Of a stretch of DNA of 64,000 nucleotides, positions 4,227-56,418 are shown in pieces. The DNA is from Thiobacillus sp. 0-1251. GTDB lineage: Bacteria > Pseudomonadota > Gammaproteobacteria > Burkholderiales > Thiobacillaceae. The notes under the pieces were generated by a model. That model saw only the letters and a list, made by a program, of their open reading frames with translations, was not told the origin of the DNA and made no database searches. Position numbers and translations under genes: made by a program. The DNA lies in contig MKWL01000001.1 of NCBI GenBank assembly GCA_001899305.1, positions 248,001 through 312,000 of the forward strand. Reading direction: 5' to 3'. The first letter of the stretch is position 1; the number at the start of each line of letters is the position of its first letter.

Positions 4227-4906
4227 GTCGGGGTCCGCTGCCAATGCCCGCTGTAGCGGCCCAGCATCAGCAGCACGAGGAAGGAAAACGCGACCAGTCC
4301 GGCCGACAGCAGGTGCGCGTCGGCGTACTCGAGCGCTTCGACATGGTCGTAGATCGCTACCGACAGGACCCGCGTCTGGTCCGGAATATTGCCGCCCAGC
4401 ATCAGCACCACGCCGAACTCGCCCACGGTGTGGGCGAATGCGAGCACGGCGGCGGTGATGAAGCCGGGCCGGGCGAGCGGAATGGCCACGCTGGCAAAGC
4501 GGTCCCATGGCGAGGCGCGCAAGGTGGCGGCCACTTCGAGCGGACGCGTGCCGATGGCGGCAAACGCATTGGCGAGCGGCTGTACTGCGAAGGGCAGCGA
4601 GAACACCACCGATCCGACCACCAGCCCGGCAAACGTGAACGGTAGGGTCGATAAACCGAGTTGCTGCATCCCGTGTCCGACTGCGCCTTTCGGCCCCAGC
4701 AGTACCAGCAGATAAAACCCCAGCACGGTCGGCGGCAATACCAGCGGCAGCGATACCAGTGCGGTGACGCCCGCGCGCAGGCGCGCGTGGGTATGGGTCA
4801 GCCACCAGGCCAGCGGCGTGGCGATCAGCATCAGCAGCGCCGTCGTGATCGCGGCCAGCTTCAGCGTCAGCAGGATGGCCGACGTATCGGCCTCGGTCAG
4901 GGACAT
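4223..4906 (-). CDS. modB: ModB, molybdate ABC transporter permease
   Basis: Inner membrane permease of 227 residues with five hydrophobic helices and the conserved cytoplasmic coupling loop of binding-protein-dependent permeases ([22 protein letters not shown] near residues 125-146), which docks onto ModC. It starts three bases after the modA stop and overlaps modC by ATGA, giving a tight modABC operon on the minus strand. Confidence 0.95.
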
Positions 4907-4909
4907 GGA

Positions 4910-5662
4910 TTACAGGTCGTAGCCATAGCGGCGGATGATAGCCTGCGCACCCGGCGTTCCCAGGAAATCAAGCAGCGCACGCGCAGCCGCATTGTCGGCG
5001 CCGTGCTTCAGCAGGGCGGCATCCTGACGGATCGGCGAATACAGCTGGCTGGGAACGAGCCACATCGAGCCTTGGGTCAGCTTGCCGTCTTGCATGATCT
5101 GGGACAGGGCCACGAAGCCGAGGTCGGCATTGCCGCTGGCGGCAAACTGATAGGTTTGGCCGATGTTCTCACCCACCACGAGTTTGCCTGCGACCACATC
5201 GAAGAGTCCGAGTTTGCCCAGGGCTTCCTTTGCGGCGGCGCCATAAGGCGCCAGCTTCGGGTTGGCGACGGCAAGCCTGCCGAAACGGTTCTGCTTCAGC
5301 ACGGCATCGGTGCCGTCGATCAGGTTGGCGTTGGCGCTCCACAGGGCGAGCTTGCCGATGGCGTAGTTGCGGGTGGCGACGGCATCGCCTTCGCGCAGCA
5401 ACCGGGCCGGCGTGTCGTCGTCGGCGGCCAGCAACACGTCGAACGGGGCACCGTTCTTGATTTGTGCGTAGAACTTGCCGGTCGAACCGGACGACAAGGT
5501 GAGCGTGTGGCCGGTCGCCTGTTCGAACCGCACGGCCAGCACCTTCATTGGCGCGGCGAAGTTGGCGGCAACGGCGATATGCGCCGTGTCTGCCGCAGCG
5601 GGCAGGCTGGCGGATGCGGACAGCACAAGGATGGATGCCAGTTGCTTGAATATGCGTGTCAT
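4910..5662 (-). CDS. modA: ModA, periplasmic molybdate-binding protein
   Basis: Periplasmic solute-binding protein of the molybdate ABC importer, 250 residues. An N-terminal signal peptide (MTRIFKQLASILVLSAS, cleaved near AAADTA) precedes the mature start with the family motif VAANFAAPMKVLA; SSGSTGKFYAQIKNGAPFD contains the oxyanion-contacting serines. The start chosen is the ATG with AGGGGA nine bases upstream. An in-frame ATG further upstream would place the candidate ModE operator inside the gene and bury the signal peptide, so it is rejected. First gene of modABC. Confidence 0.93.
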   Translation of the reverse strand: MTRIFKQLASILVLSASASLPAAADTAHIAVAANFAAPMKVLAVRFEQATGHTLTLSSGSTGKFYAQIKNGAPFDVLLAADDDTPARLLREGDAVATRNYAIGKLALWSANANLIDGTDAVLKQNRFGRLAVANPKLAPYGAAAKEALGKLGLFDVVAGKLVVGENIGQTYQFAASGNADLGFVALSQIMQDGKLTQGSMWLVPSQLYSPIRQDAALLKHGADNAAARALLDFLGTPGAQAIIRRYGYDL

Positions 5663-43629: not shown

Positions 43630-46311
43630 ATGTCTGTCGTTTCATCTGTCTGCTGTTATTGCGGCACCGGTTGCGGGGTGTTGATCGAAGCCGACGCGGG
43701 GAAGATCACCGGCGTGCGCGGCGATCCCGCGCATCCGGCGAACCGGGGAAAACTCTGCACCAAGGGCGCGACGCTCGCCCTGTCGGCGGCTGCGAGCGGG
43801 CGTGCGCTGTATCCCGAACTGCGGGTCGACAGGACCGCGCCGCGCCAGCGCGTGGGCTGGGACACGGCGCTCGACCATGTCGCCGAGAAATTCCGTGCGG
43901 TCATCCAGGAACACGGCCCCGACGCGGTGGCGTTCTATATTTCCGGACAGCTCACCACCGAGGCGTATTACGTCTTCAACAAGCTCGCCAAGGGGCTGAT
44001 CGGCACCAACAACGTCGACACCAATTCGCGCCTGTGCATGTCGTCCGCGGTGGCGGGCTACAAGGTCACGCTGGGTGCCGATTCGCCGCCGGGCTGCTAC
44101 GACGACATCGATCACGCCGGCACGATTTTCATCGCCGGATCGAACACGGCCTATGCGCATCCGATCCTGTTCCGCCGCATCGAGGCGGCGCGCAAGGCCA
44201 ACCCGGACCTGAAGCTGGTCGTGGTCGATCCGCGCCGCACCGACACCGCGGCCGAGGCCGACCTGCATCTCGCGATCCTGCCCGGTACCGACGTCGCGCT
44301 GTATCACGCCATGCTGAACGTGATGCTGTGGGAAGACCTGCTCGACCGCGAGGCCATCGCCGCGCACACCGAAGGCTGGGAGGCATTGCGCGACCAGGTG
44401 CGCGACTACACGCCGGAAAAAATGGCGCCGATCTGCGGCGTGGCGGCGGCCGACATCGTGCAGGCGGCGCGCTGGTTCGCCGCCGGGCCGACGCTGTCGC
44501 TGTATTGCCAGGGCCTGAATCAGTCGAGCTGCGGTGTCGACAAGAATGCCGCGCTGATCAATCTGCACCTGGCCACGGGCCAGATCGGCAAGCCGGGCGC
44601 CGCGCCGCTGTCGCTCACCGGCCAGCCCAACGCGATGGGCGGGCGCGAGGTCGGCGGGCTGGCCAATCTGCTGTCCGCACATCGCGATCTTGCCGACCCC
44701 GAACACCGTGCCGAGGTCGCGCGCCTGTGGGGGGTGGACGCGGTGCCGGCGACGCCGGGCAAGACCGCGGTGGAAATGTTCGAGGCCGTGCGCCGCGGCG
44801 AAATCAAGGCGATCTGGATCGCCTGCACCAATCCCGCGCAATCGCTGCCTGATCAGCGTCTGGTCCATGATGCCCTGCAGGCGGCCGAATGCGTGGTGGT
44901 GCAGGAGGCGTTTGCCGATACCGAGACCGTGGCGTTCGCCGACGTGCTGTTGCCGGCCGCCAGCTGGGGCGAGCAGGACGGCACCATGACCAATTCCGAA
45001 CGCTGCATTTCGCGCGTGCACGCGGCGGTGCCGCCGCCGGGCGAGGCCCGTGCCGACTGGGTCATCGCAACTGAATTTGCACACCGGCTGATGCCGGGCG
45101 AGGGCGCGCGGCTGTTTCCCTACGACAGCGCCGAAGCCGTGTTCAACGAACATCGCGAGACCACGCGCGGGCGCGATCTCGACATCACGGGCCTGTCCTA
45201 TGCATTGCTGGATCAGGCGCCGCAGCAATGGCCGTTTCCCGAGGGCGCGTCGGTCGGCCAGCCGCGCCTGTACGCCGACGGCGTCTATCCCACCGCCAGC
45301 GGACGTGCACATTTTCATGCCGTGCCGTATCGCCCGGTGGCCGAGGCGATCGACGCGCGCTATCCCTTGCACCTCAATACCGGCCGCCTGCGCGACCAGT
45401 GGCACGCGATGAGCCGCACCGGCCGCGTCGCGCGTCTGTTCGCTCATGCCGACACGCCGCTGCTGTCGATGGCAACGCGCGACATGGAACTGCGCCGGTT
45501 GAACCCAGGCGACCTGGTGCGCGTGAAAAGCCGTCGCGGCGACGTGGTGGTGGCGGTCGAAGCCAGCGAGAGCCTGCGTCCCGGGCAATGTTTCCTACCG
45601 ATGCATTGGGGTGCACGCTTCATGGGTGGACTGGGGATCAATGCGCTGACCCTGCCGACTTTCGATGCGATGTCGAAGCAGCCGGAACTTAAGCATGCCG
45701 CGGTGCAGGTGGCGAAGGCCGAGCTGCCCTGGCGCATGGCCGCGCTGGCGGTGGGCGACGGCGCGAAGCTGCTCGATGCCGTGCAGCCGCTGCTGCGTGC
45801 CTGCGATTACGCGGCCGCCGGGCTGGCAGGGCGCGAGCGCGACGTGCTGACCTTGCACCTGGCGCATACGCAGCCGCTGCCGGATGGACTGCTGGCGGCG
45901 CTCGATACCGCGCTTGGGCTGGACGATCCGCTCGCGGTGATGCATTACCAGGACAGTCCGCGCGGCATTTCCAAACGTGTGCGCGTCGAGTCGGGCAAGG
46001 TCGTCGCCGCACGTCTCACCGGTGAGACGGCCGCCTTCGATTGGCTGCGGGATGTCATCGTGGAAGGCGTGGATGCCGCTTCGCTGCGCAACTGGATGCT
46101 GGCGCCGGTGGCGCGCCCGCCGGCCGGCGGGGCCGGCCGCGGTCGCATCGTGTGCAACTGCCTGAACGTGGCGGAGCCGGACATCGTCGCTGCGATCGCG
46201 GCAGGGGCCGATCTGGCCGCGCTGCAGGCCACGCTGAAATGCGGCACCGAGTGTGGCTCGTGCGTGCCGGAATTGAAACGGCTGCTCGCCGGGAATCGGG
46301 CGGCGGCATGA
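43630..46311 (+). CDS. nasA: NasA, assimilatory nitrate reductase catalytic subunit
   Basis: 893-residue molybdopterin enzyme reducing nitrate to nitrite in the cytoplasm (no signal peptide). The N-terminal [4Fe-4S] site is C8-X2-C11-X3-C15-X27-C43. Molybdopterin-guanine-dinucleotide domains follow, with SRLCMSSAV around the molybdenum-ligand cysteine. The C-terminal ~60 residues (CNCLNV...CGTECGSC) are a BFD-type [2Fe-2S] domain, typical of the NasA branch that receives electrons from a small reductase or ferredoxin. Its stop overlaps the ATG of a 12-codon mini-frame. Molybdate is supplied by modABC. Confidence 0.95.
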   Translation: MSVVSSVCCYCGTGCGVLIEADAGKITGVRGDPAHPANRGKLCTKGATLALSAAASGRALYPELRVDRTAPRQRVGWDTALDHVAEKFRAVIQEHGPDAVAFYISGQLTTEAYYVFNKLAKGLIGTNNVDTNSRLCMSSAVAGYKVTLGADSPPGCYDDIDHAGTIFIAGSNTAYAHPILFRRIEAARKANPDLKLVVVDPRRTDTAAEADLHLAILPGTDVALYHAMLNVMLWEDLLDREAIAAHTEGWEALRDQVRDYTPEKMAPICGVAAADIVQAARWFAAGPTLSLYCQGLNQSSCGVDKNAALINLHLATGQIGKPGAAPLSLTGQPNAMGGREVGGLANLLSAHRDLADPEHRAEVARLWGVDAVPATPGKTAVEMFEAVRRGEIKAIWIACTNPAQSLPDQRLVHDALQAAECVVVQEAFADTETVAFADVLLPAASWGEQDGTMTNSERCISRVHAAVPPPGEARADWVIATEFAHRLMPGEGARLFPYDSAEAVFNEHRETTRGRDLDITGLSYALLDQAPQQWPFPEGASVGQPRLYADGVYPTASGRAHFHAVPYRPVAEAIDARYPLHLNTGRLRDQWHAMSRTGRVARLFAHADTPLLSMATRDMELRRLNPGDLVRVKSRRGDVVVAVEASESLRPGQCFLPMHWGARFMGGLGINALTLPTFDAMSKQPELKHAAVQVAKAELPWRMAALAVGDGAKLLDAVQPLLRACDYAAAGLAGRERDVLTLHLAHTQPLPDGLLAALDTALGLDDPLAVMHYQDSPRGISKRVRVESGKVVAARLTGETAAFDWLRDVIVEGVDAASLRNWMLAPVARPPAGGAGRGRIVCNCLNVAEPDIVAAIAAGADLAALQATLKCGTECGSCVPELKRLLAGNRAAA

Positions 46312-46346
46312 GTTACGCCACTTCAATGGGCTCCGTCATTTCATGA
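46308..46346 (+). CDS. 12-codon mini-frame bridging nasA and ybiB
   Basis: ATGA at the nasA stop opens a frame encoding MSYATSMGSVIS whose own TGA overlaps the ATG of the next gene (ATGA again). The first five residues equal the first five of the downstream protein (MSYAT). This looks like a small duplication of the downstream start, keeping translational coupling across the 31-base gap. Confidence 0.4.
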   Translation: MSYATSMGSVIS

Positions 46347-47308
46347 GCTACGCGACCCTGATCCGCCAGATCGAAGCCGGCGAAGGACTGGGCTTTGTCG
46401 ATGCGCGTGCGCTGGGCGCGGCGCTGCTCGATGGCGGCGTGCCGGAACTGGAGACGGCCGCATTTCTGGTCGCGTTCAACCAGCACGATCCGGGACTGGA
46501 CGCCTGGCTCGGCATGCATGCCGCACTGGCCGAACGCTTGCCGGATTTCGTTGCGCCGACAGGGCCGTTCCGCACCGTGGTGCTGCCTACCTATCACGGC
46601 GTGCGTACGCAGCCGCATCTCACGCCGTTGCTGGCGCTGCTGTTGAGGAGTTTCGGCATACCGGTGCTGATCCATGGCGTGCTCGAAGGGGGTGGCGGGA
46701 CGGCCGCGGCTTACGTCCTGCGCGAGCTCGGCATCATGCCCTGCAGTACGGTGGCCCAGGTCAATGCTGCGCTGCAGGATGACGGCATCGCCTTCGCGCC
46801 GGTAGCCTTGCTGAGTCCCGGACTGGCCGCGCTGCTGGCCTTGCGCGCGCGGCTGGGTATCGACGGCTGGGTGACGCGTCTGGCGGCACTGGTCGACATA
46901 CTGGGCGAGCGTTCGGTGCGGGTGACGCCCGTGATCTCGGATGGGGACGTTGCGCCGACGCGTGCCGTGCTGGAAGCCCTGGGCGGACACGCCTTGCTGC
47001 TGCAGGGCTGCGAGGGCGAGGCGTTTGCCGACCCGTCGCAGCGGCCGGACATGGTGCTGGTGCAGGACGGGCAGGGGGAGCGGGTGTACGAGGCCCAGCC
47101 CGCATCGTCGCTGCTGGCGAACCTTCCGGAACTGGATGCGCGGGCAACCGGCGCCTGGACGGATCAGGTCATGCATGATCATCTGCCGTTGCCGCTGCCG
47201 ATTCGCAATCAGCTGGCGGTCTGCCTGTTTGCGGCGGGGTATACCGAAGACCTCAACCAGGCGCGCGCCATCACCGCCATCAACGGCTTCGGCCGGGTAG
47301 CGGCCTAG
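46343..47308 (+). CDS. ybiB: YbiB/TrpD2-like protein of the nitrate operon
   Basis: 321 residues with the fold of anthranilate phosphoribosyltransferase: helical N-terminal domain (~1-70, FLVAFNQHDPG) and an alpha/beta domain with VLIHGVLEGGGGTAAAYVLRELG where TrpD has its PRPP loop. The true TrpD catalytic motifs are not conserved; the match is to the YbiB/TrpD2 group, which binds nucleic acid in E. coli and is often encoded next to nitrate assimilation genes in betaproteobacteria. Cotranscribed with nasA. Confidence 0.8.
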   Translation: MSYATLIRQIEAGEGLGFVDARALGAALLDGGVPELETAAFLVAFNQHDPGLDAWLGMHAALAERLPDFVAPTGPFRTVVLPTYHGVRTQPHLTPLLALLLRSFGIPVLIHGVLEGGGGTAAAYVLRELGIMPCSTVAQVNAALQDDGIAFAPVALLSPGLAALLALRARLGIDGWVTRLAALVDILGERSVRVTPVISDGDVAPTRAVLEALGGHALLLQGCEGEAFADPSQRPDMVLVQDGQGERVYEAQPASSLLANLPELDARATGAWTDQVMHDHLPLPLPIRNQLAVCLFAAGYTEDLNQARAITAINGFGRVAA

Positions 47309-47332
47309 CTTCGGTGCATGGCAGGCGATCAG

Positions 47333-47347
47333 GCACCACGATGGTGC
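47333..47347 (+). promoter_or_regulatory. NtrC-type site upstream of nirB
   Basis: GCACCA-CGA-TGGTGC is a perfect dyad identical in halves and spacing to the strong NtrC site of E. coli glnA (GCACCA-N3-TGGTGC). It lies 77 bases before the sigma-54 element. Confidence 0.85.
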
Positions 47348-47423
47348 GCATCGCAGCGGCGGGTTTTCGAGACACGCCGCTGAAACCCTGAAAAAACAAG
47401 GTGTCCAGTGGGTGCCCTCACCA

Positions 47424-47439
47424 TGGCATAGCGATTGCT
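47424..47439 (+). promoter_or_regulatory. Sigma-54 promoter of nirBD
   Basis: TGGCAT-AGCGA-TTGCT, GG to GC spacing 10 bases. The expected transcript begins about 65 bases before the nirB ATG. Confidence 0.85.
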
Positions 47440-47515
47440 AGGTATCGTAGCAAGCAGACCGAATGCAACGGCGTATCTCGGTCATCACTTTTGGTCTTCC
47501 GTTTGGAGTGGTGAT

Positions 47516-49972
47516 ATGGATATGAGTACGCCCATGGGACGCGGTCCCAAAATGAAACTGGTCATGGTCGGCAATGGCATGGCGGGGGTGCGCACCCTCG
47601 AAGAGCTGCTGAAGCTGGCGCCCGACCTCTACGACATTACGGTGTTCGGCGCCGAACCGCATCCCAACTACAACCGCATCCTGCTGTCGCCGGTGCTGGC
47701 AGGCGAGCAGACGGTCGACGACATCATCCTCAATCCCACCGACTGGTATGCGGAAAACGGCATCCATCTCCACATGGGCCGCAAGGTGGTGAAGATCGAC
47801 CGCTCCGCCCGATTTGTCGAAGCCGAGGACGGCACCCGCGCCGACTACGACCGCTTGCTGCTCGCCACCGGTTCCAATCCCTTCATCCTGCCGGTACCCG
47901 GCGCCGACCTGCCCGGCGTGATCAGCTTCCGCGACATCGCCGACGTCGACGCGATGATCCGTGCGTCCAGCCAGTACAAGCACGCGGTCGTCATCGGCGG
48001 CGGCCTGCTGGGGCTGGAAGCCGCCAACGGCCTGATGAAGCGCGGCATGGATGTGGCCGTGGTGCATATCGGCCCTTGGCTGATGGAACGCCAGCTCGAC
48101 GAACCCGCCGCACGCCTGCTGCAGAAGAGCCTGGAAGAAAAAGGCATGAAGTTCCTGCTGCAAAAGCAGACGGCGGAACTGGTGCAGGGCGAGTCCGGGC
48201 GGGTGGCGGCGATCAAGTTCAAGGATGGCGATTCCGCCCCCGCCGATCTGGTGGTGATGGCCGTCGGCATCCGTCCCAACACCGAGCTTGCCGAATCCGC
48301 CGGCCTGCACTGCAACCGCGGCATCGTCGTCAACGACACCATGCAGACCTTCGATCCGCGCATCTATTCCATCGGGGAATGCGCCGCCCACCGTGGCGTC
48401 GCCTACGGACTGGTCGCACCGCTGTTCGAGCAGGCCAAGGTGTGCGCCAACCATCTCGCGCATTACGGCATCGGCCGCTACCAGGGTTCGGTCACGTCGA
48501 CCAAACTCAAAGTCACCGGCATCGATCTCTTCTCGGCCGGCGATTTCATCGGCGGCGAGGGCACCGAGTCCATCCTGTATTCCGATCCCCTCGGCGGCGT
48601 GTATAAAAAACTGGTCCTCAAGGACAACAAGCTGGTCGGCGGCGTGATGTATGGCGACACCGTCGACGGCGCCTGGTATTTCTCGCTGCTGCGGGACGGC
48701 AAGAACGTGTCCGAGCTGCGCGACCACCTGATGTTCGGCCAGGACCACTGCGGCAACCTCGGCCATCAGGGCATCAACAAGGCTGCGACGATGACCGACG
48801 ACATGGAGGTGTGCGGCTGCAATGGAATTTGTAAAGGCGACATCGTCAAGGCGATCCGCGAGAAGGGGCTGTTCACGCTGGAGGACGTGAGGAAGCACAC
48901 CAAGGCCTCGTCGTCGTGCGGCTCATGCACCGGCCTCGTCGAGCAGATCCTTGCGGTGACCGCCGGCGGCGACTATTCGGCCGCGCCGAAGACGAAGTCG
49001 ATGTGCGGCTGCACCGACCACACCCACGAGGCGGTGCGCGAGGCGATCCGTGAGAACAAGCTGCTGACGATTCCGCAGGTGATGCAGTTCATGGAATGGC
49101 GCACGCCGAATGGCTGCGCCAGCTGCCGCCCGGCGCTCAACTACTACCTGATCTCGACTTGGCCGGGCGAGGCGGAAGACGATCCGCAGTCGCGCTTCAT
49201 CAACGAGCGCGCCCACGCCAACATCCAGCGCGACGGCACTTATTCGGTGATCCCGCGCATGTGGGGCGGGCAGACCACGCCGGCCGAGCTGCGCCGCATC
49301 GCCGAGGTCGCCGAGAAATATGCCATCCCTTCGGTCAAGGTCACCGGCGGCCAGCGCATCGATCTCTTGGGCGTGAAGAAGGAGGACCTGCCGAAGGTGT
49401 GGGCCGATCTCGACATGCCGTCCGGCCACGCCTACGGCAAGGCCCTGCGCACGGTGAAGACCTGCGTCGGCTCCGAGTGGTGCCGTTTCGGCACGCAGGA
49501 TTCGACGCAGATGGGCATCGACCTCGAGAAGGTGTTCTTCAAGATGTGGGCGCCGCACAAGGTCAAGCTCGCGGTGTCGGGCTGCCCGCGCAACTGTGCC
49601 GAGGTCGCGATCAAGGACGTCGGCATCATCGGCGTCGATTCCGGCTGGGAGATCTACGTCGCCGGCAACGGCGGCATCAAGACCGAGGTCGCACAGTTCC
49701 TGGTCAAGGTGAAGACGCCCGACGAGGTGATCGAGTATTCCGGCGCCTTCCTGCAGCTGTACCGCGAGGAGGCGCGCTACCTCGACCGCACCGTCCACTA
49801 CGTCGAGCGCGTCGGCCTCGACTATGTGAAAAAGAAAATTCTCGACGATGCCGACAACCGGCGCGCGCTATACGAGCGTCTGCTGTTCGCGCTGTCGGTC
49901 GAGCGCGATCCCTGGGTCGAGCGTGCCAGGGAAGGCAAGCTCAAGCATGAATTCGAAACCGTCGCCGCATGA
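47516..49972 (+). CDS. nirB: NirB, NADH-dependent nitrite reductase large subunit
   Basis: 818-residue cytoplasmic enzyme reducing nitrite to ammonia. Order of domains: FAD (MKLVMVGNGMAGVRTLEEL), NADH (AVVIGGGLLGLEAANGL), two BFD-type Fe-S clusters (CGCNGICKGDI...CGSCTGLVEQ; CGCTDHTHE...GCASCRPAL) and the sirohaem/[4Fe-4S] domain with C-X5-C (CVGSEWC) and C-X3-C (CPRNC). The start is the ATG eight bases after GGAG; an earlier in-frame GTG/TTG-type extension would include the sigma-54 promoter. nirD follows after 12 bases. Confidence 0.96.
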   Translation: MDMSTPMGRGPKMKLVMVGNGMAGVRTLEELLKLAPDLYDITVFGAEPHPNYNRILLSPVLAGEQTVDDIILNPTDWYAENGIHLHMGRKVVKIDRSARFVEAEDGTRADYDRLLLATGSNPFILPVPGADLPGVISFRDIADVDAMIRASSQYKHAVVIGGGLLGLEAANGLMKRGMDVAVVHIGPWLMERQLDEPAARLLQKSLEEKGMKFLLQKQTAELVQGESGRVAAIKFKDGDSAPADLVVMAVGIRPNTELAESAGLHCNRGIVVNDTMQTFDPRIYSIGECAAHRGVAYGLVAPLFEQAKVCANHLAHYGIGRYQGSVTSTKLKVTGIDLFSAGDFIGGEGTESILYSDPLGGVYKKLVLKDNKLVGGVMYGDTVDGAWYFSLLRDGKNVSELRDHLMFGQDHCGNLGHQGINKAATMTDDMEVCGCNGICKGDIVKAIREKGLFTLEDVRKHTKASSSCGSCTGLVEQILAVTAGGDYSAAPKTKSMCGCTDHTHEAVREAIRENKLLTIPQVMQFMEWRTPNGCASCRPALNYYLISTWPGEAEDDPQSRFINERAHANIQRDGTYSVIPRMWGGQTTPAELRRIAEVAEKYAIPSVKVTGGQRIDLLGVKKEDLPKVWADLDMPSGHAYGKALRTVKTCVGSEWCRFGTQDSTQMGIDLEKVFFKMWAPHKVKLAVSGCPRNCAEVAIKDVGIIGVDSGWEIYVAGNGGIKTEVAQFLVKVKTPDEVIEYSGAFLQLYREEARYLDRTVHYVERVGLDYVKKKILDDADNRRALYERLLFALSVERDPWVERAREGKLKHEFETVAA

Positions 49973-49984
49973 AGGAAGCACACG

Positions 49985-50317
49985 ATGAATAACTGGACTG
50001 ACATCCTGGATGTGGACGACATCCCCAAACTCGGCGCACGCGTGGTGCGCCACGGCAGTCTGGATATTGCCGTGTTCCGTACCGCCGACGATGAGATCTT
50101 CGCGCTGGAGGACCGTTGCCCGCACAAGGGTGGTCCGCTGTCGCAGGGGATCGTGCATGGCAGGAAGGTCGCCTGTCCGATGCACAACTGGAACATCGAG
50201 CTGGATTCCGGTTGTGCGGTGGCGCCGGATCATGGCTGCGCGCGCGAATTCGCAGTGAGAGTCGAAGCGGGCCGGGTGTGGCTGGATTTCACTGAAGCGG
50301 TCAGCGCCACTGCGTGA
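49985..50317 (+). CDS. nirD: NirD, nitrite reductase small subunit (Rieske-type)
   Basis: 110 residues with the Rieske fold; CPHKGGPLSQG and CPMHNWNIEL supply C-X-H and C-X2-H ligands, so this NirD retains a complete Rieske [2Fe-2S] ligand set, unlike E. coli NirD, which lacks it. It partners NirB in the cytoplasm. Last gene of nirBD, convergent with minE. Confidence 0.93.
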   Translation: MNNWTDILDVDDIPKLGARVVRHGSLDIAVFRTADDEIFALEDRCPHKGGPLSQGIVHGRKVACPMHNWNIELDSGCAVAPDHGCAREFAVRVEAGRVWLDFTEAVSATA

Positions 50318-52324: not shown

Positions 52325-53122
52325 TCAGGCCGCTTCTTTGGGCCGCATCTGGCGGCTGTAGAGGAATTCCAGCACCTGGCTGCGCAGCGCGTGATAGTGC
52401 GGGTCGTGCGCCAGCGCGAGGCGGTCGCGCGGGCGCGGCAGGTCCACGCTGAGGATTTCGCCGATGGTCGCGGCCGGGCCGTTGGTCATCATCACGATGC
52501 GGTCGGACAGCAGCACCGCCTCGTCGACGTCGTGGGTGACCATGATGACCGTGCTCTGCGTTGCCGCGACGATTTTCATCAGTTCGTCCTGCAGGTGGGC
52601 GCGGGTCAGCGCGTCGAGCGCCCCGAAGGGTTCGTCCATCAGTAGCACTTTCGGCTCCATCGCCAGCGCGCGGGCAATACCGACGCGCTGCTTCATGCCG
52701 CCGGAAATCTCGCCCGGCAGCTTGTTGGCGGCGTGAGTCAGGCCGACGAGCTCGAGCGCGGCCGTGGTACGTGCCTTCAGCTGAGCCTTCGATTCGCTGG
52801 CGCCGAACACCTTTTCCACCGCGAGGTAGACGTTCTCGAACGCGGTGAGCCAAGGCAGCAGCGAGTGGTTCTGGAACACTACCGAACGCTCCGGCCCCGG
52901 GCCCCTGATTTCCTTGTTGGCGAGCAGCAGCACGCCGTCGGTGGCGTCGAGCAGCCCCGCCACCAGGTTCAGCAGCGTGGACTTGCCGCAGCCGGAATGG
53001 CCGATCAGCGCAATGAACTCGCCCTCATCGATGTTGAGGTTGATGTCGGTGAGCGCGGTGAACTTGCCTTTCTTGGTACTGAACACCATGCCGGCGTTTT
53101 CGATCTGGACGTAGGATTGCAT
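52325..53122 (-). CDS. nrtD: NrtD-type nitrate ABC transporter ATPase
   Basis: 265 residues: Walker A GHSGCGKS, signature ISGGMKQRVGIARALAMEP, Walker B VLLMDEPFGALD. It belongs to the nitrate/sulfonate/taurine ATPase group; context with NrtA and NrtB assigns nitrate. The C-terminus lacks the NrtA-like sensor domain of cyanobacterial NrtC. Separated from nrtB by an 81-base gap that holds a repeat. Confidence 0.9.
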   Translation of the reverse strand: MQSYVQIENAGMVFSTKKGKFTALTDINLNIDEGEFIALIGHSGCGKSTLLNLVAGLLDATDGVLLLANKEIRGPGPERSVVFQNHSLLPWLTAFENVYLAVEKVFGASESKAQLKARTTAALELVGLTHAANKLPGEISGGMKQRVGIARALAMEPKVLLMDEPFGALDALTRAHLQDELMKIVAATQSTVIMVTHDVDEAVLLSDRIVMMTNGPAATIGEILSVDLPRPRDRLALAHDPHYHALRSQVLEFLYSRQMRPKEAA

Positions 53123-53203: not shown

Positions 53204-54118
53204 TTACTCGTAGGAAAACCGCTTTGCCAGCAGCATCAGCCCCTGTTCGAGCAGCAGGCCGACGATGCCGACGATGAAGATGGCGATGATGATGTGGGCG
53301 ACGTTGAGGTTGTTCCACTCGTCCCATACCCAGAAGCCGATGCCGACGCCGCCGGTGAGCATCTCGGCGGCGACGATCACCAGCCAGGCCACGCCGATCG
53401 ACAGCCGCACGCCGGTGAGCACATAGGGCAGCACCGCCGGGAACAGGATCTTGGTGAACACCTTGAGCTCCGACAGGTTCAGCACGCGCGCGACGTTCAT
53501 GTAGTCCTGCGGGATGCGCTGCACGCCGGCGGCGGTGTTCAGAACCATCGGCCAGATGCTGGAGATGAAGATCACCCAGATCGACGCCGGCTCGGCCTTC
53601 TGCAGCACCAGCAGGCCGATCGGCAGCCAGGCCAGCGGTGATACCGGGCGCAGGATGCTGATGATGGGTGACAGCATGCGGTTGAGGAAGTCGAAGCGGC
53701 CGACCATGAAGCCGAGTGGAATCCCCACCAGCGCGGCGGCGCCGAAGCCCATGCCGACGCGGTAGAGCGAATTGAGGATATTCCAGCCGATGCCCTGGTC
53801 GTTGGGGCCGTTGTCGTAGAACGGATCGGAAAACAGTTCCACCGCCGAATGCCAGGTTTCCACGGGGCCGGGGATGTTCTTGACGCTATGGGCGGTCAGT
53901 CCCCACAGGCCGATGAACAGCAGCATGCCGAGCAGGGGCGGGATGGCGTTCCTGAACAGGGTCAGCGTGTTCTCGACGAGGCGCTTGCCCGATTCGGTTT
54001 CGAAATAGGGAACGCGGCGGGTGGGGAGGGCCGCCGCCGGCACCGGGGGCGGTGGGGCGATGTCCTCGCCCGACAGGATGTCGTTCAGATTTTCGGTTGT
54101 TGCATTGACTGCACTCAT
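53204..54118 (-). CDS. nrtB: NrtB-type nitrate ABC transporter permease
   Basis: 304 residues with six hydrophobic helices and the EAA coupling loop (NVARVLNLSELKVFTKILFPAVLPY). The 60-residue N-terminal cytoplasmic extension is Pro/Ala-rich. The start is the ATG after AGGAG. In this lineage nrtB lies between a globin relic and nrtD. Confidence 0.92.
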   Translation of the reverse strand: MSAVNATTENLNDILSGEDIAPPPPVPAAALPTRRVPYFETESGKRLVENTLTLFRNAIPPLLGMLLFIGLWGLTAHSVKNIPGPVETWHSAVELFSDPFYDNGPNDQGIGWNILNSLYRVGMGFGAAALVGIPLGFMVGRFDFLNRMLSPIISILRPVSPLAWLPIGLLVLQKAEPASIWVIFISSIWPMVLNTAAGVQRIPQDYMNVARVLNLSELKVFTKILFPAVLPYVLTGVRLSIGVAWLVIVAAEMLTGGVGIGFWVWDEWNNLNVAHIIIAIFIVGIVGLLLEQGLMLLAKRFSYE

Positions 54119-54153
54119 ATCGCACTCCTGGATGTTTACGCGGCGGCGGCGGC

Positions 54154-54282
54154 CTACTTCATGGCTGATGCCAGCGTGGCGGCGGCTTCCGCCCACACCT
54201 CGAACAGCTGGGCTGCCGTGTCCTTGATCGGCAGCACCTGCTGCCTGCTGCTGCGTACCAGTGCAATTTTTTCCGGGGTCAT
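54154..54282 (-). pseudogene. Internally deleted single-domain globin (42 codons)
   Basis: The intact frame encodes MTPEKIALVRSSRQQVLPIK followed by DTAAQLF, which is the A/B-helix start of bacterial single-domain globins, and then jumps to EVWAEAAATLASAMK, which resembles their final helix (W.EAY..LA..M). About 90 central residues including the haem pocket are missing. An AGGA ribosome site is retained six bases before the ATG. Likely a relic of a nitrosative-stress globin of the nitrate operon. Confidence 0.6.
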
Positions 54283-54300: not shown

Positions 54301-55572
54301 TCAGGCCTTGATCTTGAAGCTATCCGCGTAGGCCTTGGGGTTCTTGCCATCCCACACCACGCCGTCGATCAGCTTGCTGCTGCGCATGTCGGACTTCGGC
54401 AGCGGCGTCTTCGTCATCGCGGCGGCCTGCTTGTAGATGTCGATGCGGTTGACCTTCTTCGCCACGGCCAGGTAATCCGGATGCTCTTTCAGCAGTCCCC
54501 AGCGCTTGTGCTGGGTGAGGAACCACATGCCGTCGGACAGGTAGGGGAAGCCGACCGCGCCGCCGTTGTAGAACTTCATGTAGTTGGGGTCCTGCCACTT
54601 CCTGCCGATGCCGTTGTCGTACTGGCCGAGCATGCGGTCTTCGATCGAGTCGAAGTCGGTGTTGACGTAGGACTTGGCCGAGATGATCTTCGCGACTTCC
54701 GAGCGGTTCGACATGGTGTCGATGTACTTCGATGCATCGAGAATGGCCGCCACCATCGCGCGCGCCGTGTTCGGATATTTCTGCACGAACTCGGCGGTGG
54801 TGCCGAGCACCTTCTCCGGGTGATCCTTCCAGATGTCCTGCGTCGTCACCGCGGTGAAGCCGATGTTGTCGTGAATCGCGCGCGCACCCCACGGCTCGCC
54901 CACGCAGAAGCCGTCCATGTTGTCGACCCGCATGTTGGCGACCATCTGCGGCGGCGGCACGGTGATGACCTTGGCCTGGGTGAAGGGGTTGATGCCATAC
55001 GCCGCCAGCCAGTAATACAGCCACATCGCGTGGGTGCCGGTGGGGAAGGTCTGCGCGAAGGTGTATTCCTTCGGCTCGGCGGCGACGAGGCGGGCGAGCG
55101 AGGCGCCGTCGGTCACGCCCTTGGCCTTCAGCTGGTTCGACAGCGTGATCGCCTGGCCGTTGTTGTTGATCGTGGCGAGCACCGCCATGTCCTTCTTCGG
55201 CCCGCCGATCCCCATCTCCACGCCGTAGATCAGGCCGTACAGCACGTGCGCCGCGTCGAGTTCGCCGTTCACCAGCTTGTCGCGCACCGCCGCCCACGAG
55301 GCTTCTTTCGAGGGCGTGATGGTGAGGCCGTATTTCTTGTCGAATCCCTTCACCGACGCCATCACGACCGACGCGCAGTCGGTGAGCGGGATGAAGCCGA
55401 TGTTGAGGTTGGGTTTCTCCGGCGCGTCGGAGCCGGCGGCCCAGGCACCCTGGCGCACGCCGGGCGGCACCATGGCCATGAGGGCGGCGGCGACGGAAAG
55501 TCCGGTGGTCTTTTTCATGAAATCACGCTTGCTATGGTCTTGCACAATGGGTTTGTTCGGGGTGTCGCTCAC
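54301..55572 (-). CDS. nrtA: NrtA-type periplasmic nitrate-binding protein
   Basis: 423 residues. The N-terminus SKRDFMKKTTGLSVAAALMAMV is a Tat-like signal with KR instead of RR. The mature protein is an NrtA/CmpA-type solute-binding protein (IGFIPLTDCASVVMASVKGFDKKYGL; FCVGEPWGARAIHDNIGFT). First gene of nrtABD, preceded by a 120-base leader with an ANTAR-type attenuator. GTG or ATG: here ATG-type reading is replaced by GTG (GTGAGCGACACC) with TTTGGAG upstream. Confidence 0.93.
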   Translation of the reverse strand: MSDTPNKPIVQDHSKRDFMKKTTGLSVAAALMAMVPPGVRQGAWAAGSDAPEKPNLNIGFIPLTDCASVVMASVKGFDKKYGLTITPSKEASWAAVRDKLVNGELDAAHVLYGLIYGVEMGIGGPKKDMAVLATINNNGQAITLSNQLKAKGVTDGASLARLVAAEPKEYTFAQTFPTGTHAMWLYYWLAAYGINPFTQAKVITVPPPQMVANMRVDNMDGFCVGEPWGARAIHDNIGFTAVTTQDIWKDHPEKVLGTTAEFVQKYPNTARAMVAAILDASKYIDTMSNRSEVAKIISAKSYVNTDFDSIEDRMLGQYDNGIGRKWQDPNYMKFYNGGAVGFPYLSDGMWFLTQHKRWGLLKEHPDYLAVAKKVNRIDIYKQAAAMTKTPLPKSDMRSSKLIDGVVWDGKNPKAYADSFKIKA

Positions 55573-55608
55573 GGTGTGTTCTCCAAATGCCCAGAGGGCA
55601 TAAATAAA

Positions 55609-55638
55609 AAAGGCGTCGCCTTCAGGGCGGACGCCTTT
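55609..55638 (-). terminator. Leader attenuator of nrtA
   Basis: On the minus strand: AAAGGCGTC(C)GCC, loop CTGAA, GGCGACGCCTTT, followed by a T-rich run (TTTTTTATTTAT). One bulged base. It sits 37 bases before the nrtA start, inside the transcript, so it must be bypassed for expression. Confidence 0.85.
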
Positions 55639-55690
55639 GTCCAGTGATGAATGATTTGACGGTCACGCTGAAAGCCACAACGTTGCGACT
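55629..55690 (-). ncRNA. ANTAR-type antitermination RNA (two hexaloop hairpins)
   Basis: P1 (55673-55690): AGTCGC, loop AACGTT, GTGGCT. P2 (55629-55642): GGAC, loop AAAGGC, GTCC. Both loops are six bases with A at position 1 and G at position 4, the published ANTAR recognition rule, and P2 uses the 5-prime arm of the terminator, so P2 and the terminator are mutually exclusive. NasT, encoded just upstream, is an ANTAR protein. Confidence 0.8.
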
Positions 55691-55705
55691 GTTCAGTCCA
55701 GGTTT

Positions 55706-55721
55706 AGCAACCGCTGTGCCA
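55706..55721 (-). promoter_or_regulatory. Sigma-54 promoter of nrtA
   Basis: TGGCAC-AGCGG-TTGCT on the minus strand: perfect consensus with correct GG-N10-GC spacing. The expected transcript start is near 55695, just before hairpin P1. Confidence 0.88.
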
Positions 55722-55798: not shown

Positions 55799-55844
55799 GC
55801 ACCCGTGCGGTGCATGTTTTCAGTGCCGTGCACCAATCGGGGCG
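55799..55844 (-). promoter_or_regulatory. Tandem NtrC-type sites upstream of nrtA
   Basis: GCACCC-GTG-CGGTGC (one symmetric pair away from GCACCA-N3-TGGTGC) and, 31 bases away, GCACCA with a degenerate partner. They are about 80-130 bases upstream of the sigma-54 element, immediately after the nasT stop. Confidence 0.65.
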
Positions 55845-55851
55845 GCACGCC

Positions 55852-56418
55852 TCATGCCAGCGGATTTTGCAGAATCTGCCGCGCAATGTCCGCCAGCTTC
55901 AGGCCGCGATCCATCGCCGCACGGCGCATCTCGCGATACACCTCGGGTTCCGACGCGCCGGTCTGCTTGATCAGCAGCGCCTTGGCCTGGTCGATCAGCT
56001 TGCGTTCCGACAGTTCGAGCCGCGTCTGTTCCAACTGGTCGTGCAGCGCCTGGAAGGCCTCGAAGCGCGAGACAGCGACGTCGAGGATCGGCCGGATGCG
56101 CGCCGGGTCGAGGCCGTCGACCACATATGAGGTCACCCCCGCCTGCGTCGCCGCGCGGATCGAATCCGGACTGCCGTCGCCGGTGAACATCACGATCGGA
56201 CGCGGGCAGTCCTGGTTCACCACGCAGATGTGCTCGAGCGTATCGCGGTCGGGTGAGTCCTGCGCGATGATCACCACGTCCGGCCGCAGCGCCTGGATCT
56301 GCACGTCGAGGCTGCGCGCCGAATTCAGCGTGGCCGTCACCACGCAGCCTGCCGCCTCCAGTGCGGGCACCAGCATGGCCAGCCGTTCCGGCTGGTTCTC
56401 AACAATCAGTACGCGCAT
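55852..56418 (-). CDS. nasT: NasT, ANTAR-domain antiterminator
   Basis: 188 residues: N-terminal receiver-like domain (1-120; D54 is present, but the acidic pair is replaced by E-N in LIVENQP, suggesting a pseudo-receiver), a coiled-coil linker, and an ANTAR RNA-binding domain (~130-185: LSERKLIDQAKALLIKQTG, AMDRGLKLADIARQIL). NasT frees the nitrate operon leader from termination; in characterised systems it is held by the nitrate sensor NasS. No nasS is in the window. It lies immediately upstream of nrtA on the same strand. Confidence 0.93.
   Translation of the reverse strand: MRVLIVENQPERLAMLVPALEAAGCVVTATLNSARSLDVQIQALRPDVVIIAQDSPDRDTLEHICVVNQDCPRPIVMFTGDGSPDSIRAATQAGVTSYVVDGLDPARIRPILDVAVSRFEAFQALHDQLEQTRLELSERKLIDQAKALLIKQTGASEPEVYREMRRAAMDRGLKLADIARQILQNPLA

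Follow-up and report, generated by a model that had tools for sequence, protein, structure and literature searches.

The window analysed here comprises 64,000 nucleotides of the Thiobacillus sp. 0-1251 genome. Its minus strand carries nasT and, downstream of it, the nitrate transporter genes nrtABC:

55852..56418, minus strand: nasT, a 188-aa protein with REC-like and ANTAR domains (Pfam ANTAR 59.6 bits, Response_reg 34.9 bits) in which Ala52 replaces the phospho-acceptor Asp
54301..55572, minus strand: nrtA, nitrate-binding protein (PF13379, 356 bits), with a GTG start and GGAGA at 55580-55584
53204..54196, minus strand: nrtB, nitrate ABC permease (TIGR01183, 257 bits against a cut-off of 209)
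52325..53122, minus strand: nrtC, nitrate ABC ATPase (TIGR01184, 345 bits against a cut-off of 292)

NrtA begins with a KR-type TAT-like signal (judged by eye), and its best solved relative is the NrtA of entry 2g29. The NrtC of the window gave no NMT1_2 match and thus has no fused NrtA-like domain. As had been proposed for the gene next door, nasT encodes an ANTAR protein, and no other ANTAR gene was found in the genome. Its product is 86-99% identical to the NasT of 33 loci, mostly from records named Thiobacillus or Hydrogenophilales, and 39.3% identical to the Paracoccus denitrificans protein. On the opposite (plus) strand, positions 43630-50317 contain nirB, nirD and, at 43630-46311, a frame that by eye resembles a molybdopterin oxidoreductase.

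The nasT-nrtA gap measures 279 nt and is read, in transcript order, as an NtrC-like dyad, a sigma-54 box, hairpins P1 and P2, a terminator, a six-T tract, a ribosome-binding site and the GTG of nrtA. The elements ahead of the ribosome-binding site are:

55799..55813, minus strand: NtrC-like dyad GCAC-N7-GTGC, 92 nt before the sigma-54 box
55706..55721, minus strand: sigma-54 -24/-12 box TGGCACAGCGGTTGCT, from sequence
55668..55696, minus strand: hairpin P1, inner loop AACGTT at 55679-55684 (A1/G4), inner stem 55690-55673
55643..55667, minus strand: linker between the two hairpins, 25 nt measured from the outer stem of P1; counted from the 6-bp inner stem it is 30 nt, the length originally proposed
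55629..55642, minus strand: hairpin P2, GGAC-AAAGGC-GTCC (A1/G4)
55606..55638, minus strand: intrinsic terminator with a six-T tract, which overlaps P2 in its loop and 3′ arm

A sigma-54 promoter had been predicted, and its box is present, but at 55706-55721 it lies outside the 55573-55700 to which the leader had been assigned. Transcription is predicted to start near 55695. The box recurs in all 37 leaders compared (the window, 32 nrtA leaders and four second leaders described below), and GCAC-N7-GTGC stands upstream of it in 31 of the 37 promoters, at -91 to -93 in 25 and at -79 to -82 in 6, against a background of 0.03 per 350 bp; the 37 promoters are mutually related and so do not amount to 37 independent cases. 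One NtrC above the curated cut-off is encoded in the genome, so that a box, an upstream NtrC-like dyad (a predicted site) and an NtrC gene are all in place. The patterns used for these sites are what we take to be the sigma-54 and NtrC consensus sequences.

P1, P2 and a terminator sharing the P2 arm are all found on the minus strand, just as the original prediction described them. Both loops also follow the A1/G4 rule as claimed; however, RNAfold pairs A1 with U6 of AACGUU and closes P1 as a tetraloop, so that the P1 hexaloop is only nominal in the window sequence, a point that weighs against antitermination. Through their shared arm P2 and the terminator are mutually exclusive, as they should be in an ANTAR leader. 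The calculated energies are -4.0 kcal/mol for P2 alone, -17.8 for the terminator alone, -17.3 for P1 with P2 and -30.1 for P1 with the terminator. Because the terminator far outweighs P2, termination should be the default and the persistence of P2 would need help. The 128-nt stretch as a whole folds with z = -2.91, none of 200 shuffles being equally stable. An architecture finder, which requires a pair of A1/G4 hexaloop hairpins with stems of 4 bp or more, the second overlapping a terminator, was run over both strands of the 64-kb window and returned this one match, and none in 10 dinucleotide shuffles. Before the nirB/nirD region of the window it found no ANTAR leader, unlike the NalA-nirBD arrangement in Pseudomonas. 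Between the terminator and the ribosome-binding site, at 55587-55601, lies the palindrome ATGCCCTCTGGGCAT; related inserts occur in some relatives (loci L006 and L009) and are absent in others (L008 and L010).

The covariance check against Rfam that had been suggested did not succeed at the curated level, as no family reached its gathering score anywhere in the window. Six matches came out of a permissive scan over 601 bases; two of them, both below their cut-offs, fit the architecture: P11 (RF00625; 27.5 against 70 bits, E 4.5e-4), which runs from promoter to terminator over the whole model, and narK (RF03032; 22 against 43.2 bits, E 0.069). The other four look like chance. P11 is presumably NalA, the NasT-opened leader of Pseudomonas nirBD, with which the window leader shares the order of sigma-54 promoter, P1, P2 GGACAAAGGCGUCC and terminator. 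It differs from NalA in preceding nrtABC instead of nirBD, in its P1 sequence, in its genome, where no NasS was found, and in a score below gathering. Rfam's name for P11 is that of an sRNA, and this match, although sub-threshold, would suit a reading in which the terminated transcript acts mainly as a small RNA and read-through into nrtA is minor. We hold that to be very unlikely, since a ribosome-binding site and the nrtA start follow within about 35 nt of the terminator in the window, and since the available text of two papers (PMC12830290, PMC3973561) treats NalA as the leader of its own operon. The review among them (PMC12830290), in its available part, describes NalA as driven by a sigma-54/NtrC promoter and opened by NasT, whereas for one strain of Pseudomonas protegens the available part of PMC3973561 states that an NtrC motif was not found before nalA. 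By analogy with NalA, the window leader would follow a two-layer logic, in which nitrogen limitation starts transcription and NasT lets it pass. Beyond this locus, the P2 pattern had one perfect site in the genome and 220 sites with 1-2 mismatches, fewer than the 337 of a reversed-pattern control, so that no further targets can be claimed from it; a blast of the leader against plasmids gave no matches.

Relatives allowed us to ask what is conserved. Of the 33 loci related by NasT, 32 have the leader. The exception is L019 in G028, a MAG of the Thiobacillus group: at 4555-4950 it still has the sigma-54 box and a loop resembling P1, with neither P2 nor the terminator, which may reflect a natural leader loss or an assembly fault. 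Aligned with the window, these leaders make a set of 33, 31 of them distinct. Loss of the A1/G4 hexaloops in close relatives had been named as a result that would speak against the leader, and it was looked for: all 33 leaders have A1 and G4 in P1, with positions 3, 5 and 6 of the loop differing among them. P1 passes a strict stem test in 32 of 33, failing in L023 with a C.C closing pair. The invariance of P2 is no test, because the leaders were picked by that 14-mer. Linkers span 25-31 nt. Base pairing holds in 96.6% of cells, whereas slid structures reach 34.5-58.1%. Covariation is modest, amounting to three P1 pairs and 5 cells changed on both sides; among 500 shuffles, 5 attain the three pairs and 2 attain the 5 cells, and a slide of +1 gives 2 pairs and 4 cells. 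Extra pair types tell against antitermination in so far as their observed number was reached by 61 of 500 shuffles.

Some of the relatives carry more than one leader. A second sigma-54 box, with P2 (AAAGGC or AACGGC) and a terminator, is found at L015:5232, L016:6257, L018:6309 and L023:3257, and in L016 and L018 a distinct second nrtA-like gene follows it. The stem test found no A1/G4 hexaloop in the transcribed part before P2 in any of the four, so that either their P1 differs or NasT reads P2 alone. In the loci L016 and L018 (at 4845 and 4851, respectively) the first nrtA has no ordinary start codon ahead of the SKRDF/S motif, whose codons remain upstream, and the TAT-like motif may thus have been lost from that protein; in L015 and L023, where a GTG lies upstream, the motif may or may not be kept.

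Leader, nasT and nrtA also travel together. Among 40 congeneric genomes, an ANTAR gene is present in 28, this nrtA in the same 28, and the leader in 27, all of them within the 28 and none among the 12 that lack the ANTAR gene. As nasT and the leader are neighbours, joint loss within a genus is expected without any function, and co-occurrence alone is weak. Of 200 genomes in the order, 75 carry an nrtA of this type (E <= 1e-130), and 72 of these 75 have an ANTAR gene as against 30 of the 125 others; the remaining three have this NrtA type and no ANTAR match. In one of the 72 (G162) the leader and nrtA lie on a different contig from nasT. A model trained on the genus, run with stricter filters, found the leader in only 9 of the 200 genomes, compared with the 102 that carry an ANTAR gene; the low yield is due to changes in P1 sequence. 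The structural finder recovered it in 14 of 21 nasT/nrtA loci of the order. In a count that did not require A1/G4, the rule held for 20 of 28 hexaloops in 19 other nasT-linked leaders versus 8 of 91 in coding controls, where the 19 (of 24 chosen loci) are those with a sigma-54-like box in the expected stretch and hexaloops of one leader are not independent of each other. P1 and P2 are short, and P2 by itself is weak (-4.0 kcal/mol), as hairpins might be that stand by chance beside an ordinary terminator under no NasT control. Such a coincidence is highly improbable in view of the empty shuffles, the strict retention of A1/G4 in P1 (33 of 33) and the enrichment of A1/G4 in distant leaders.

Anatomy, conservation and co-occurrence, all observed directly, argue that the stretch is very probably a NasT-controlled transcription antitermination leader of nrtABC, which would extend NasT-type antitermination to these genes in a Thiobacillus-type genome. 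Under nitrogen limitation, NtrC-P and sigma-54 would start transcription near 55695. Where active NasT is absent, the terminator would form and transcription would end before nrtA. A NasT dimer on the A1/G4 loops of P1 and P2 would keep P2 closed; with P2 closed, its 3′ arm would be kept from the terminator, and polymerase would read through into nrtABC. We infer the protein-RNA contact and the read-through, and the action of NtrC and a response to nitrate are likewise predicted.

The spacing of the two hairpins is where the leader departs most from the EutV/AmiR/NasR dual-hairpin antiterminator as set out in the available text of PMC3369931. The two have in common a pair of A1/G4 hairpins, a terminator overlapping P2 and an ANTAR protein in the genome. 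According to that source, however, the eut leaders of Enterococcus faecalis have linkers of 5-12 nt, as against 25-31 nt in the Thiobacillus group, and linkers of 3 or 14 nt drastically reduced induction. The 25 or 30 nt of the window fall outside the short range seen for EutV, which we weigh against antitermination; we do not count a short linker as defining, because the published motif definition (same source, in its available part) permits a variable one. Across the other nasT/nrtA loci, the P1-P2 spacing runs from 1 to 47 nt, so that in this leader and its relatives spacing is far looser than work on EutV suggested. Either NasT tolerates spacing differently, or extra structure draws P1 and P2 together. 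A linker hairpin that would shorten the distance was sought by eye in the folds and is not general. Two loci of the order (L068 and L079) have, in the nasT-nrtA gap, three consecutive A1/G4 hairpins ahead of the terminator, not two, and these triple hairpins may be part of the answer.

If the leader is opened by NasT, then NasT needs a signal. In the published NasS-NasT system (Paracoccus and others; PMC3795266, available text), NasT is held by NasS, an NrtA relative that has no signal, and binding of nitrate or nitrite ends this hold. The window shares with that system a NasT relative beside a nitrate cluster and a related nitrate-binding protein, but its nasT is adjoined by a TAT-like NrtA behind a leader, and no signal-less NasS was found. 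The assembly searched is rated 100% complete and lies in 24 contigs; none of its 4 PF13379 matches is signal-less, all having TAT- or Sec-like signals by eye. Thus a NasT orthologue with REC-like and ANTAR domains is encoded, whereas a cytoplasmic, signal-less NasS is not seen, and NasT is probably freed by some signal other than that of the published system. Moreover, Ala52 occupies the phospho-acceptor site in every aligned NasT of the Thiobacillus group; over 69 aligned rows, some of which represent the same gene twice, residue 52 is Ala in 40, Asp in 26 and Gly in 3. With no NasS found and Ala52 in NasT, neither known input (NasS or phosphorylation) is visible. A link between Ala52 and the loss of NasS was considered and dropped, as most NasT rows outside the Thiobacillus group keep Asp. 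A literature search, mostly without subscription papers, found no report of a NasS-less NasT beside a TAT-NrtA.

The missing NasS poses the question of what signals nitrate to NasT, and two answers were considered. First, NasT may not be gated by nitrate at all: its abundance, or another ligand such as c-di-GMP, would set read-through, and NtrC alone would gate nitrate uptake. The lack of a detectable NasS and the Ala52 common to all aligned Thiobacillus-group NasT fit this explanation, as does the statement in the available part of a review (PMC12830290) that c-di-GMP binds and impairs the NasT of P. putida. Yet little would be gained from a terminator that NasT always opens, and A1/G4 of P1 is strictly kept; we regard the explanation as rather unlikely.

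The second answer lies in the relatives of NasS. A Caballeronia NasS used as query found the nasT-linked NrtA as its best match in our genome (46%), followed by a CynA-like TAT protein (29%), and in all 14 congeneric genomes searched the nasT-linked protein again ranked first. The query was run over 37 genomes, and the 20 stretches taken for second or unusual matches each contain a homologue whose N-terminus looks export-like by eye. Outside the 33 close loci, we chose further loci and classed 53 nasT genes by script according to the nearest homologue, a regular expression and inspection by eye serving to judge export signals. In 25 of the 53 that homologue is TAT-like (one of them, L127, probably with a wrong start), and a leader was found in 18 of these 25; it is signal-less in 17, only one of which (L071) yielded a leader. 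A further 3 are unclear, with a leader in 1, and 8 have no homologue nearby. Signal-less NasS genes mostly abut nasT, standing upstream of it in L119 and L120. The division is not clean, since three of the 25 TAT loci (L118, L122 and L112) also have an NrtA-like domain without a visible signal. In L118 it is a signal-less protein 3.9 kb on. Near nasT, L122:9020-11167 encodes an NrtA-like domain fused to an ABC ATPase, and L112:202-2352 a 716-aa protein with an NrtA-like domain and an unassigned N-terminus; either is possibly another cytoplasmic nitrate sensor.

A tree of 49 proteins places signal-less NasS in two clades, each including nasT-linked TAT proteins. Group one neighbours the TAT-NrtA clade that includes the window's protein (the branch uniting the two has support 100/100), and group two clusters with four TAT proteins linked to nasT (97/93). 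Forcing every NasS row into one clade is rejected with p-AU 8e-9, although the groups were named after a first tree (66 rows) had been seen and NasS rows have an odd composition and some long branches. The 17 rows left out comprise duplicates and near-duplicates, proteins with doubtful starts, and homologues that do not adjoin nasT (one of them signal-less, in L118). Well-supported branches require at least two switches, in whichever direction, between keeping and losing the signal. In three signal-less NasS the sequence AGSDAPE or GGSDAPE is also retained, with letters found at the end of the NrtA signal.

One possible hypothesis is that NrtA itself is the nitrate sensor of NasT in Thiobacillus and in many related bacteria. 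Unexported apo-NrtA would hold NasT in the cytoplasm, and nitrate would free NasT, which would then open the nrtA leader. TAT substrates fold in the cytoplasm before export, and apo-NrtA could therefore hold NasT before leaving. The hypothesis adds to the antitermination reading, for which it would supply the source of the signal. In its favour are the lack of a detectable signal-less homologue in the genome, the uniform result of the Caballeronia query, the association of the leader with TAT-like and only rarely with signal-less loci, the mixing of NasS with nasT-linked TAT proteins in both clades, and the signal-end letters. Against it, kinship is no proof of shared function; the signals were judged by regular expression and eye, and the tree has the limits given above; some TAT loci hold a signal-less NrtA-like domain as well; three genomes have this NrtA and no ANTAR match; and the cytoplasmic pool may be nil after TAT export. 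We consider it unlikely on balance. Were it true, one gene product would both transport and sense, feeding back on its own leader; NasS and nasT-linked NrtA would represent a single protein in two forms, which had switched between keeping and losing the signal at least twice; and the relation of NasS-type sensors to transporter components would be a testable, repeated event. The leader is real and most likely works as proposed. Its RNA belongs to the NasT/NalA class, and in the circuit NasT, with no NasS in view, would act on the gene whose product is the closest NasS relative.

The weaker of the two fitting Rfam matches touches on another family. A literature search on the narK RNA family found no paper. 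The match in the window spans the sigma-54 box and the P2-like GACAAAG(A/G)CGUC, in model columns that are shown unpaired; narK RNA may be an unrecognised NasT-type leader. Set against window positions 55628-55720, its consensus has a sigma-54-like GGCAC..UUGCU and a P2-like CGACAAAGACGUCG with A1/G4.
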